From an uncultured Kordiimonas sp. (lineage in GTDB: Bacteria > Pseudomonadota > Alphaproteobacteria > Sphingomonadales > Kordiimonadaceae): DNA of 64,000 nucleotides. A program made the position numbers and the translations under genes. Shown here piece by piece: positions 20,161 through 51,003 of the stretch (positions are counted from its first letter, which is position 1; each line of letters begins with the position of its first letter). Below the pieces are notes generated by a model. That model did no database searches and was not told the origin of the DNA. It saw only the letters and a program-made list of their open reading frames with translations. The stretch is from positions 1-64,000 of the forward strand of contig CANMRM010000001.1 in the NCBI GenBank assembly GCA_947500295.1. Reading direction: 5' to 3'.

Positions 20161-20503
20161 AATGCCTGTGTCAGACGGCGCGGAACCTACACGGCGAATC
20201 TGATTCTTGCAAGCCTTAAAACCGTTAATAAATTCGCGAAAATTGGTTAACTTTTTGCCGTCATCTGCCAAGTTTTTGAAAATAGCAAAAAAAATTTTTC
20301 GTTTTTACTAAAAATTTTTCCTTTTTTTATCAGCACCTTATCTAACTGATGTGCATTTGAATAAAATTTTATCCTTTTGATTACCAGAGATTAACAGGCC
20401 TCCCGCTAAAACCATATTCAACGAGCCGCGGTTAAGGTTTGGAAGAGAGGTAACCACCGCACACGCTCCTTGAAACACACATTACACACGATTGGATGGA
20501 ACC
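20161..20503. other. Intergenic, strongly A+T-rich tracts
   Basis: No gene is seen. The segment 20281-20330 contains A/T tracts, including two copies of AAAATTTTTC each followed by a T-run, likely intrinsically curved DNA. The region must carry promoters for the leftward tRNA-Arg and the rightward TonB-C-domain gene; no clear -35/-10 pair could be fixed. Confidence 0.5.
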
Positions 20504-20872
20504 ATGTTGAAGAAATTTAACAAGATATTTGCAGTAGCAATTGCCCTAACTTTCGCTTTTGGCACAGTGAGCACATCAGCTAGCGCCAGCGACATGAACA
20601 GCTGGAAAAAAGCAGTCGCCAAAAAAGTTGCTAAGAAACAAAAGTACCCACGCGCCGCTTTGGCCCGGGAAATTGAAGGCAAGGCAAAAGTTCGCCTCGT
20701 AGTCTCTGCAGATGGCTCTATCGCCAGTCATGAAATCGTTGAGGAAACCGGCCAGGCAATCCTCGACAAAGAAATCGTCAAGCTCGTTGGGCGCCTGAAC
20801 CCGCTTCCTGCGCTGCCGGAAGATCGCACCGAGCTCTCGTTTGTTCTGCCCCTGAGCTGGACACTCAACTAA
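20504..20872 (+). CDS. Stand-alone exported TonB C-terminal-domain protein, copy 1
   Basis: About 122 residues from ATG 20504 (an upstream in-frame TTG is less likely). Signal peptide LKKFNKIFAVAIALTFAF to SASAS, then a single TonB_C-like domain: KYPRAALAREIEGKAKVRLVVSADGSIASHEIVEETGQAILDKEI. The YPxxAxxxxxxGxxxVxxxVxxDG pattern is the TonB/TolA C-terminal fold that touches receptor TonB boxes. Full TonB proteins have a membrane anchor and a Pro-rich linker; both are missing, so it cannot transduce energy alone. A close paralogue follows at 21094-21453. It could be a periplasmic modulator of TonB or an adaptor. Confidence 0.82.
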   Translation: MLKKFNKIFAVAIALTFAFGTVSTSASASDMNSWKKAVAKKVAKKQKYPRAALAREIEGKAKVRLVVSADGSIASHEIVEETGQAILDKEIVKLVGRLNPLPALPEDRTELSFVLPLSWTLN

Positions 20873-33540: not shown

Positions 33541-34029
33541 TTACGCAGGCTTGATCAGGGCTTGTTTGACAAAAACATCTGCCTTTCCTTCTCCCAGTCG
33601 ATGATTCAGGAACTGGGAAAGGTAGGCACGAACAATATCCGGATCGATAGGCTTATTGACATCGAACCGTTGCTTTGAAAGCGTGGTCAGGGCACTGAAA
33701 AAATCCGACCGTATCTGTGGGAGTCGCAGGCGCACAATCTCTGAATCTTTTTGTTCCTGCACCACCAGCGTGAGGGTCATAGAAACACGGCCCACCAATC
33801 GCCCGCGCTCAAACATCGAAAACGTAAAGGGGTCCATGTCGATACTCAGCTTGCCTTCTTCAGGCATGGCGCCGTCCTTGGCGAGTACAACCGGGTTCAC
33901 GGACAGTGAAATAAGCAGAAGGGCCAATGCCAACAAAATCTTCGAAGAGAAACCTGATCCCCCCAATCCCGACCGCCTCAGCAAACCAGTGCTTCGGGTC
34001 AGTGTCTTCGAATTGATTATATGGCTCAT
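33541..34029 (-). CDS. Membrane-anchored FliL-like protein
   Basis: About 162 residues from ATG 34029; the frame can also start 36 nt earlier. One hydrophobic segment (KILLALALLLISLSVNPVVLA) follows a basic N-terminus. The soluble part reads LSIDMDPFTFSMFERGRLVGRVSMTLTLVV, then VRLRLPQIRSDFFSALTTLS, and DIVRAYLSQFLNHRLGEGKADVFVKQALI. The order, with beta-strand 'F..F.RGR....V.mtL.L', a 'lPqiRd.f...L' helix and a C-terminal strand, resembles FliL and related basal-body-associated proteins, but overall similarity is weak. The giant SBBP protein and a sigma-54 promoter nearby make a flagellar or surface role plausible. Confidence 0.5.
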   Translation of the reverse strand: MSHIINSKTLTRSTGLLRRSGLGGSGFSSKILLALALLLISLSVNPVVLAKDGAMPEEGKLSIDMDPFTFSMFERGRLVGRVSMTLTLVVQEQKDSEIVRLRLPQIRSDFFSALTTLSKQRFDVNKPIDPDIVRAYLSQFLNHRLGEGKADVFVKQALIKPA

Positions 34030-34124
34030 ATTGAAAATCCTGCCAGAGTTTGCGCGTGAGACCAAACGAAGAAGACCATAGCGACCACTGATAAACAGGA
34101 ACTTAACACATCAATTTCAGCCTA

Positions 34125-34182
34125 GTGCAATATGCGACATAATGTTGCATATTGCACCTATTCACTGACGCAATATGCAACA
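34125..34182. promoter_or_regulatory. Palindromic GCAATATGC motif cluster (putative upstream activating sequence)
   Basis: GTGCAATATGC (34125-34135) and GCATATTGCAC (34147-34157) form a perfect 11-bp inverted repeat, extended inward to 16-bp arms with one mismatch. A third copy, GCAATATGCAACA, is at 34170-34182. The copies are centred about 150 and 117 bp upstream of the predicted sigma-54 start site, the normal distance for an enhancer-binding protein. They could alternatively control the leftward FliL-like gene. Confidence 0.55.
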
Positions 34183-34224
34183 GTTCTCATCCAAGCATCC
34201 GATATCCAATAGCGAAATATAATA

Positions 34225-34237
34225 TAAAATATTGATT
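34225..34237. promoter_or_regulatory. IHF consensus site
   Basis: TAA-AATA-TTGATT is an exact match to YAANNNNTTGATW (reverse complement of the IHF consensus WATCAANNNNTTR), in an A+T-rich flank. It lies between the palindrome cluster and the sigma-54 promoter, as expected for IHF-assisted looping. Confidence 0.55.
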
Positions 34238-34266
34238 TAAAAGGATTTTTATATATTCACAAAACA

Positions 34267-34282
34267 TGGCACGCGCTTTGTA
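34267..34282 (+). promoter_or_regulatory. Sigma-54 (-24/-12) promoter
   Basis: TGGCACG-CGCT-TTGTA matches the consensus TGGCACG-N4-TTGCW at every fixed position except the C of the -12 GC. Spacing is exact. The predicted start, about 12 nt after the -12 element, is near 34293, which is 3 nt before the first base of the first structured hairpin. No coding sequence follows in this direction before a terminator. Confidence 0.75.
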
Positions 34283-34295
34283 ACGTTGTTGATAC

Positions 34296-34377
34296 CTCTC
34301 GAGCAGGGGTGCGGGAATAGGTTTAAATTTACTCGACCCCCAATCGTGCACCTGTTCCCGCGAACCCTGCTAGAGAG
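34296..34377 (+). repeat. Tandem hairpin unit 1
   Basis: Outer stem: 34296-34308 with 34365-34377 (12 pairs, one G x A mismatch at 34301/34372). Inner stem: 34311-34322 with 34350-34361 (12 pairs, one G-U). Apical loop 34323-34349. A 38-nt core, 34319-34356, is identical to unit 2. Confidence 0.85.
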
Positions 34378-34397
34378 AGTTAAAGTTTCAGAGATTT

Positions 34398-34475
34398 CTC
34401 GGGCAGGGGCTCGGAAGCAGGTTTAAATTTACTCGACCCCCAATCGTGCACCTGTTTCCATAGTCCTTGCCCGAG
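34398..34475 (+). repeat. Tandem hairpin unit 2
   Basis: Outer stem: 34398-34408 with 34465-34475 (11 pairs, one G-U). Inner stem: 34413-34422 with 34450-34459 (10 pairs, one G-U). Loop 34423-34449 is identical to unit 1. Relative to unit 1, pair 02/71 changes A-U to G-C, 15/57 changes G-C to A-U, and the 01/72 mismatch becomes G-C, all preserving the structure. Confidence 0.85.
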
Positions 34476-34480
34476 GGTTT

Positions 34481-34512
34481 AAAAAAGCGGCTCTTCAAAA
34501 GCCGCTTTTTTT
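34481..34512 (+). terminator. Intrinsic terminator, probably bidirectional
   Basis: AAAAAAGCGGCT (34481-34492) pairs with AGCCGCTTTTTT (34500-34511) over a 7-nt loop and ends in seven Ts. The A-run on the other side makes it usable for the leftward SBBP gene ending at 34585 as well. Confidence 0.9.
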
Positions 34513-34584
34513 CTGTCCAGACACCTGGAATGTCCGGAAAAACCACAAAAAAACACAGAAACCTTCCAAGAAAATCCGGAAAAT

Positions 34585-50222: not shown

Positions 50223-50891
50223 TTAAGCCGCGTCCCGCCAGTGAGGCGGGTAAGCAGCATCGAAACCGGGCAGGGCCTCAACCCGTTTCATCCAAGCGGC
50301 AAGCTCAGGGAAGTCTTCGGCATAGTCCGGTATGTTGGGTGTTATGCCCGGCACCTGAATTGTCGGGCCAATCCGGGCGATCATCGCCAGGTGCGGATAC
50401 AGCATGACGTCCACAGCGGACGGTGCATCACCCGCCATAAAGTCATTGCCATCAAGCCAACTGCTCACGGTTCTGATCTCATCACCAACTAGGGCAAAGC
50501 TTTCGTTGATCTCGTCTTCCTTGCCGGCGAAGCTCTGCGCCAAAATCGGACGCGCTGCTGTAGCCAGAGCTGTGCCGAGATAAGCATCCATTTCCATCAC
50601 ACGCCGCCAGATCAAAGCCGCCTCTTTGGGCGTATGGCCAAACAGGGGCGTCTCAGAGTACGCGCGGTCCAGGTATGCGAGCACAGCGATCGACTCGTAG
50701 ACGGTGACATCGCCGTCCACCAGCACCGGCACTTTGCCGCGCGGATTGAGCGCCAGAAACTCAGGTTTCCGGGTGTCGCCTTCACTGGAAGACAGTAGTT
50801 TTGCATCATACGCCAGCCCCTTCAGGCCGAGGGCAAGCATGGCGCGCCAGGCGAATGGGCTACCGGAGACAAAATAGATGGTGCGTGACAT
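50223..50891 (-). CDS. Glutathione S-transferase family protein
   Basis: 222 residues from ATG 50891, with GGAAGGATCC upstream. TIYFVSGSPFAWRAMLALGLKGLAYD (N-terminal, catalytic-Ser region), NPRGKVPVLVDGDVTVYESIAVLAYLD with the expected cis-Pro and Glu-Ser. The C-terminal helical domain includes WLDGNDFMAGDAPSAVDVMLYPHLAM. Stand-alone detoxification-type GST; substrate unknown and not obviously related to the GST at 43753-44346. Confidence 0.92.
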   Translation of the reverse strand: MSRTIYFVSGSPFAWRAMLALGLKGLAYDAKLLSSSEGDTRKPEFLALNPRGKVPVLVDGDVTVYESIAVLAYLDRAYSETPLFGHTPKEAALIWRRVMEMDAYLGTALATAARPILAQSFAGKEDEINESFALVGDEIRTVSSWLDGNDFMAGDAPSAVDVMLYPHLAMIARIGPTIQVPGITPNIPDYAEDFPELAAWMKRVEALPGFDAAYPPHWRDAA

Positions 50892-51003
50892 AGGATCCTT
50901 CCTCCACTGAATGACATCACTGTGGATAGAGATTGGAAGGCGGCGGGAATTTACCACCGCCCATATTTGCATGGCGGCTTATGCAGATTTGGACCAGGCA
51001 GGA

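Follow-up and report, generated by a model that had tools for sequence, protein, structure and literature searches.

The window, by which we mean the whole 64-kb stretch of Kordiimonas DNA analysed here, carries at 34125-34515 what we consider, with a probability of roughly three in four, to be the gene for a regulatory small RNA that depends on sigma-54 and is turned on by a LuxO-type activator. The predicted RNA is about 220 nt long, has a sigma-54 promoter upstream (Table 1) and belongs to a family whose fold, promoter and enhancer are conserved among relatives, and its genome of origin (G000; 4.27 Mb in 13 contigs) encodes both RpoN and a LuxO-type protein, LuxO1.

Table 1. Elements of the predicted small RNA gene and its two neighbours, in window positions.
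Feature	Position	Strand	Remarks
Divergent neighbour, weakly FliL-like	33541..34065	-	PF03748, 14.5 bits (cut-off 24.6); beside the RNA in 29/34 loci (tblastn)
LuxO-type upstream activating site 1, GTGCAATATGCGA	34125..34137	.	2 mismatches to TTGCANNNTGCAA; ~-140 cluster
LuxO-type upstream activating site 2, TTGCATATTGCAC	34145..34157	.	1 mismatch; ~-121 cluster
LuxO-type upstream activating site 3, ACGCAATATGCAA	34168..34180	.	2 mismatches; ~-98 cluster
IHF-type bend site	34225..34237	-	exact consensus match
Sigma-54 promoter, TGGCACGCGCTTTGTA	34267..34282	+	motif scan and conservation in relatives
Small RNA, predicted	34294..34515	+	5' end ~34293/34294, 3' end at terminator; from fold, covariance model R1 and promoter spacing
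Hairpin module 1	34294..34381	+	106 bits with model R1; among the 25 model-building rows
Apical loop, module 1	34322..34354	+	contains core TTTACTCGACCCCCAATCGTG
Hairpin module 2	34394..34481	+	83 bits with model R1; likewise a model row
Apical loop, module 2	34422..34454	+	33 bases identical to module 1 loop
Intrinsic terminator	34481..34512	+	stem flanked 5' by an A run and 3' by a T run
Convergent neighbour, SBBP-repeat (FlaEY-like in the earlier reading), 1090 aa	34585..37857	-	PF06739, 47.9 bits; beside the RNA in 32/34 loci (tblastn)

The sequence-only reading had proposed an undescribed small RNA with an enhancer, a bend site, a sigma-54 promoter and a terminator in order, and comparison of related sequences lends support to that proposal. 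Both inverted repeats of its palindromic cluster (34125-34182) were recovered, one of 16 nt (34125-34140/34142-34157, 94% complementary) and the other a perfect 13-nt match (34143-34155/34170-34182), and three LuxO-type sites are packed there within 56 bp upstream of the RNA promoter; over the whole window, sites with up to two mismatches number 26 versus 52 expected, i.e. they are not enriched. In the 64 kb the sigma-54 site alone matches TGGCACGN4TTGYA, a motif expected 0.03 times. The exact IHF consensus, present on the minus strand, occurs four times in the window versus 2.0 expected, so the IHF site by itself proves nothing. The start placed at ~34293 fits the promoter spacing seen in relatives and would fall at the conserved ACCUCUCGAG, while the two tandem hairpins form a 100-bp repeat with 75% identity between copies; the fold of 34290-34515 reaches -102.9 kcal/mol (z = -7.4), a stability matched by none of 200 shuffles. 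The terminator arms were located as described (34481-34495 pairing with 34497-34511) and, given the A run before the stem and the T run after it, the terminator may also serve the convergent gene. The region was said to hold no reading frame, and no ORF of at least 90 aa lies within it. Upstream of the FliL-like gene, at 34092-34107, we also observed TAAACAGGAACTTAAC, similar in several relatives by eye, which we take to resemble a CtrA box.

Nucleotide searches recovered the RNA in 28 of 59 related genomes, all within the window's family. The covariance-model search that had been recommended, run with a model (R1) built from 25 sequences, extended this to all 29 Kordiimonadaceae genomes and to three genomes of other families (G034, G042 and G035), that is, 32 of the 296 genomes of the order; in a sample of 385 genomes of the class, the single match was the window's own genome. 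It is conservation across the family that sets the arrangement apart from chance. The G035 match is weak (29 bits) but adjoins a FlaEY-like gene. The loop sequence TTACTCGACCCCCAATCGTG was present in 23 public contig stretches assigned to Kordiimonas, Kordiimonadaceae, Kordiimonadales or Alphaproteobacteria/Sphingomonadales metagenome-assembled genomes. Among cultured species, the RNA is carried by K. gwangyangensis, K. marina, K. sediminis, K. laminariae and K. aquimaris. The Rfam search, likewise recommended, gave no family at the gathering threshold and none for 11 related loci; at E <= 10 it returned 16 matches, none of them Qrr, and a match to STnc250 (25.8 bits vs a cut-off of 42) was taken as chance. 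A joint pattern of a sigma-54 site and TCGACCCCC occurred in 37 of 296 genomes, comprising 28 of the 29 family genomes, G042, G050, G061 and six genomes of family f5; the six f5 matches were taken as chance, uninspected. The reversed control had two matches (G003 and G022). G050 and G061 are not listed among the R1 matches. At their candidate loci a sigma-54-like site (reading TTGA in G061) is kept together with one or more LuxO-type sites, and the hairpin loop has CUCGACCCCCA on a different stem; no FlaEY-like gene was found within the 1.5 kb fetched on either side.

In a MAFFT alignment of the 25 model rows, two-sided changes occur at 4 of the 19 pairs, compared with a mean of 1.1 in shuffles, of which 6 in 500 score as high. 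With the structure shifted by -2 or +2 columns the count is 5 or 4, although the share of paired cells then drops from 97% to ~54%. When 31 rows are fitted to the model, 10 of 19 pairs are two-sided, versus a shuffled average of 2.4 (no shuffle of 500 reached the count) and 4 to 5 in slid structures, a count that rests on an alignment fitted to the model itself. Alignment A4 omits L126 and L127, whose matches did not reach E = 1e-6, and alignment A3, which held an antisense row, was dropped. The inner CGA-CCCCCAA-UCG hairpin of the module is almost unvarying. The loop TTTACTCGACCCCCAATCGTG is invariant in 25 of 25 model rows, which were picked by an exact CTCGACCCCCAATCGTG match, so that invariance of the core among them is by selection; independent model matches retain most of the loop core, and the exact 13-mer CGACCCCCAATCG is found in 29 of 29 family genomes. 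Most rows also conserve the 5' strand ACCTCTCGAGCAGGGG, whose 3' partner drifts, a pattern suggesting that the 5'-end sequence is important as well. The other main loci read have a single module, with no second one found.

Promoter conservation was assessed over 32 distinct loci (35 tried, three duplicates dropped), with the G035 locus and the sibling RNAs described below left out. The presence of a sigma-54-like site in 35 of 35 loci is partly by construction, since the search expression demanded TGG and TG with approximately the correct spacing; over the 32 loci, TGGCA is found in 31 and TTGY in 29, and the RNA 5' end lies exactly 11 nt after the sigma-54 16-mer in 30. The locus has a conserved -24/-12 element at a fixed distance from the RNA start and RpoN in its genome, the two features by which we class it as a putative sigma-54-dependent small RNA gene. 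Across the 32 loci, 72 upstream sites match TTGCANNNTGCAA with no more than two mismatches, versus 9.9 +/- 3.3 in 200 dinucleotide shuffles (maximum 22). At least two occur in 25 loci (1.3 in shuffles) and at least one in 29, and most fall in three phased clusters at about -140, -121 and -98. This upstream site is the published LuxO site TTGCAWWWTGCAA, which also serves SypG at V. fischeri qrr1 (PMC10162802). IHF sites are exact in 6 loci versus 0.7 in shuffles, and within one mismatch in 23 versus 8.8. Three loci (L028, L042 and L043) have no LuxO-type site within two mismatches; two of the genomes concerned, G002 and G024, have LuxO1, and the sites of L042 are replaced despite LuxO1 being kept in G002, which has the same RNA. 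By eye, L028 and L042 carry TGTCT/AGACA palindromes where LuxO-type sites would be.

A stricter pattern combining enhancer and promoter matched 43 places in 29 of 59 genomes and none in the reversed control. By coordinates, 15 of these places correspond to RNA promoters and 17 are no more than 10 kb from a LuxO2 gene; two are in G008 on a contig other than that of its LuxO2-like match, and the nine that fit neither group were put down to chance. The window's own RNA promoter misses this pattern because its third site starts with ACGC. An apparent promoter exchange was seen in one genome, G035, where the RNA (L127, G035:C3:203006-203086) stands beside a FlaEY-like gene as elsewhere. This genome has RpoN and no LuxO-type gene match at E <= 1e-120; no LuxO-type site within three mismatches was found in 200 bp at this RNA, and by eye a sigma-70-like TTGTCT-17-TATATT element lies 6 nt before the RNA start.

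Sibling RNAs were found at seven loci (L119-L125) in six genomes (G020, G007, G022, G008 twice, G002 and G004). They carry the loop UUUACUCGACCCCCAAUCGUGC wholly or nearly, in other, mostly shorter hairpins, and the loop common to them is therefore probably the working part of the RNA. No sigma-54 promoter was seen by eye at these loci, and L122 and L125 have TTGACA-type, sigma-70-like promoters by the same means; the L122 fold has z = -3.0 and that of L125 z = -1.7, with 10 of 200 shuffles equal or better. A further exact loop match was noted at G000:C3:236142-236154 (locus L158, 1620-1660). Read on the plus strand, this stretch complements the RNA loop exactly over 20 nt and has a second partial site beside it; it may be a sponge or a relic. 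In this it is like QrrX, a sponge RNA of Vibrio (PMC12559287); unlike QrrX, it was absent from the 30 other genomes searched, has no plus-strand terminator, shows one 10/12 promoter match where 0.8 are expected, and folds no better than shuffles.

To identify candidate activators, we considered the nine strong sigma-54 activators of G000, three of which (LuxO1, LuxO2 and L047), picked after reading their sequences, were scanned against NCBIfam. LuxO1 (C1:145828-147243) scores 607 bits with the LuxO model (next family 385) and LuxO2 (C5:377844-379220) 547 bits (next family 378), and these are the only G000 proteins matching that model at E <= 1e-120. The LuxO equivalog cut-off of 800 bits (NF041946) is reached by neither, nor in any of the 59 genomes, and for this reason we term them LuxO-type. 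The best solved relative is LuxO 5ep0 (452 bits vs 313 for the best non-LuxO chain), LuxO being the best family and structure by a wide margin, while L047 is best matched by the NtrC model (422 bits; FlbD model 369). Of 11 residues needed for DNA binding by V. cholerae LuxO (PMC11407668), our own alignment shows 7 kept in LuxO1 and 9 in LuxO2, and since the NtrC-type L047 also keeps 7, the helix residues do not discriminate. RpoN is encoded at C1:140412, ~5 kb from LuxO1. By coordinates, the distance between rpoN and luxO1 is likewise 5 to 6 kb in G021, G024 and G026 and ~100 kb in G034, while G042 and G050 have the two genes on separate contigs.

LuxO-type genes at E <= 1e-120 were present in 38 of 59 genomes. 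In a quick IQ-TREE phylogeny, a LuxO1 group of 36 rows, joined at a fork with support 90 that we mark as open, includes one row for each of the 29 family genomes and seven from other families, and a LuxO2 group of 12 rows includes genes from 10 of the 29 family genomes; the tree leaves out second matches in G016 (554 bits), G008 (535 bits), and G007 and G023 (~410 bits). Matches to the RNA model occur in 31 of the 36 genomes with a LuxO1-clade gene versus 1 of 23 without, a co-occurrence that is not independent evidence because most of these genomes belong to one family; outside the family the figures are 2 of 7 versus 1 of 23. G034 and G042 have both gene and RNA, and the remaining five LuxO1-clade genomes from outside the family (G033, G041, G050, G051 and G054) have no RNA model match, G050 alone among them having a diverged candidate. 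A 2004 survey assigned LuxO to most Proteobacteria when one-way best hits were used, and to few organisms when hits had to be reciprocal (PMC524169).

LuxO2 adjoins a hybrid kinase (GAF, HisKA, receiver and Hpt domains) and an H-NOX protein (PF07700, 91 bits). A few kb away, divergent sigma-54-like sites with upstream LuxO-type sites precede a sugar-transferase/export gene and a pyruvyl-transferase-like gene, both named by reading the sequence, and this promoter pair recurs in L242 to L246, L255 and L260. A gene read as hnoX-type has such a promoter in six relatives (L242 to L246 and L248); none was found before it in G000. Exosortase-like genes, again by reading, were also seen near the H-NOX, kinase and LuxO2 genes (L160/L241, G000:C5:364000-383000). 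In Vibrio, H-NOX with HqsK feeds LuxU and LuxO (PMC3759921), and HnoX/HahK acts on SypG and the syp polysaccharide (PMC12369376).

We searched for pairing partners of the loop. The 13-mer CGACCCCCAATCG, used in a loop-complement search, occurs at 38 places in 30 of 59 genomes; in Kordiimonadaceae its places off the main locus are sibling RNAs and G000:C3. One of the 38 places is in G053. As a perfect target, TTGGGGGTCGA (41 places in 16 genomes) is absent off the main RNA in 6 of the 16, and in a seventh it falls in a sibling RNA only. Pairing with 30 luxO1 gene leaders was inconsistent, with an 8-nt match in four. Duplex energies at the 54 ORFs of the window, a number that gives little power, revealed no convincing site: two ORFs did better than the best of 50 mononucleotide shuffles (20492-20872, plus strand, by 4.0 kcal/mol; 50223-50972, minus strand, by 1.4 kcal/mol), and the FlaEY-like gene ranked third at -21.5, its best shuffle being -21.9.

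Taken together, we propose that phosphorylated LuxO1, perhaps also LuxO2, would bind the three phased TTGCANNNTGCAA sites, whose positions relative to the -24 element are about -98, -121 and -140, that the AT-rich spacer would be bent by IHF, and that sigma-54 polymerase would initiate at about 34294, a position derived from sequence and conservation. The transcript, predicted to stop at the intrinsic terminator, would display the loop UUUACUCGACCCCCAAUCGUGC on one long hairpin in relatives or on two in the window. C-rich seeds are known to pair with Shine-Dalgarno regions, and the loop most likely pairs with target mRNAs at G-rich stretches around their translation starts. By a logic resembling that of Qrr, a sessile, polysaccharide-making state might thereby be joined to the silencing of other genes.

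The identity of the activator bears directly on two other explanations. The sequence-only reading had taken the neighbouring genes as a hint of flagellar-regulon control, and an activator of the FlbD/FleQ type could drive the RNA in time with flagellar assembly, given that the RNA lies between the FliL-like and FlaEY-like genes at most loci (Table 1) and that G000 has seven strong sigma-54 activators besides the LuxO pair, of which L047 was scanned. We regard this as improbable: the enhancer is the LuxO site, which is also found before exopolysaccharide genes of the same genome and before hnoX-type genes near LuxO2 in relatives, the FliL similarity falls below the Pfam cut-off (and in NCBIfam is 16 bits vs a cut-off of 131), and the G050 and G061 candidates have no FlaEY-like gene in the stretch fetched. 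The best NCBIfam match of that gene is an SBBP lipoprotein model (87.8 bits, cut-off 400). It is rather unlikely, too, that LuxO2, the H-NOX/exopolysaccharide regulator, rather than LuxO1 is the main activator, in which case nitric oxide would govern the RNA. The same sites do occur at LuxO2-linked promoters, and V. fischeri qrr1 is activated by both LuxO and SypG through overlapping sites (PMC10162802), but LuxO2-clade genes in the tree come from only 10 of the 29 family genomes, whereas LuxO1 and the RNA are present in 29 of 29.

Other alternatives concern what the element does. A C-rich hairpin that titrates an RNA-binding protein in the manner of CsrB, instead of base-pairing, is a reading that we regard as unlikely. 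In its favour, the module is doubled in the window and stands alone in sibling RNAs, its inner hairpin hardly varies, and no conserved perfect target was found in the 16 genomes with TTGGGGGTCGA; the single module at the other main loci read is few for a protein sponge, and pairing RNAs, too, usually have long invariant single strands. That the conserved sequence is a cis element, belonging on the minus strand to the 3' UTR or terminator of the convergent FlaEY-like gene, we find hardly credible, even with that gene adjacent at nearly all loci and a terminator that may work both ways. The plus-strand promoter and its 11-nt spacing to the RNA start are conserved in 30 of 32 loci, the model scores 106 bits on the plus strand versus 26 on the minus (having been built from the plus strand), and sibling RNAs occur at other loci. 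The earlier proviso, conservation solely as the leftward gene's 3' UTR, thus seems not to hold, given the RNA's own conserved promoter and the diverged candidates without a FlaEY-like neighbour.

LuxO-driven sigma-54 small RNAs are at the centre of Vibrio quorum sensing, and our results suggest a similar control circuit in a distant bacterial class. Within the open-access literature searched (subscription journals and preprints lie outside it), the matches listed include no such RNA in Kordiimonas and show LuxO/sigma-54 RNAs only in Vibrionaceae. On balance, we lean towards an alphaproteobacterial order with a LuxO/sigma-54/small-RNA switch of its own. Its RNA family would have no sequence relationship to Qrr, and its two activators would form a LuxO/SypG-like pair, one member of which is wired to H-NOX nitric-oxide sensing and exopolysaccharide genes. 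The RNA would have stayed at a single locus in several families as its body diverged and, in a genome without a LuxO-type match, would have had its promoter exchanged; siblings share its loop. If so, marine alphaproteobacteria would hold an independent or very old version of the circuit, with a different RNA and the same enhancer code, in which activator and site can be the conserved part and the RNA replaceable. Clear tests could then address which LuxO acts, which of nitric oxide and cell density provides the input, and what partner the loop has.

Like the Qrr/LuxO system of Vibrionaceae, the Kordiimonas gene combines a sigma-54 promoter, upstream TTGCAWWWTGCAA sites, a predicted, terminator-ended small RNA and a probable LuxO-type activator. 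It is not a Qrr: it has no match to the Rfam Qrr model, and unlike Qrr it has three phased sites, a hairpin module with a C-rich loop, an alphaproteobacterial host and no known LuxR/HapR-type target. The resemblance to V. fischeri extends to the activators, where LuxO and SypG are ~48% identical (PMC10162802): LuxO1 and LuxO2 are likewise paralogues (51% identical), one of them beside polysaccharide genes with sites, and, as in the HnoX/HahK-SypG-syp system, an H-NOX protein and a hybrid kinase are present. Unlike in V. fischeri, the hnoX, kinase and LuxO2 genes are here neighbours at one locus, and in six relatives, though not in G000, the hnoX-type gene itself has a sigma-54 promoter with LuxO-type sites.
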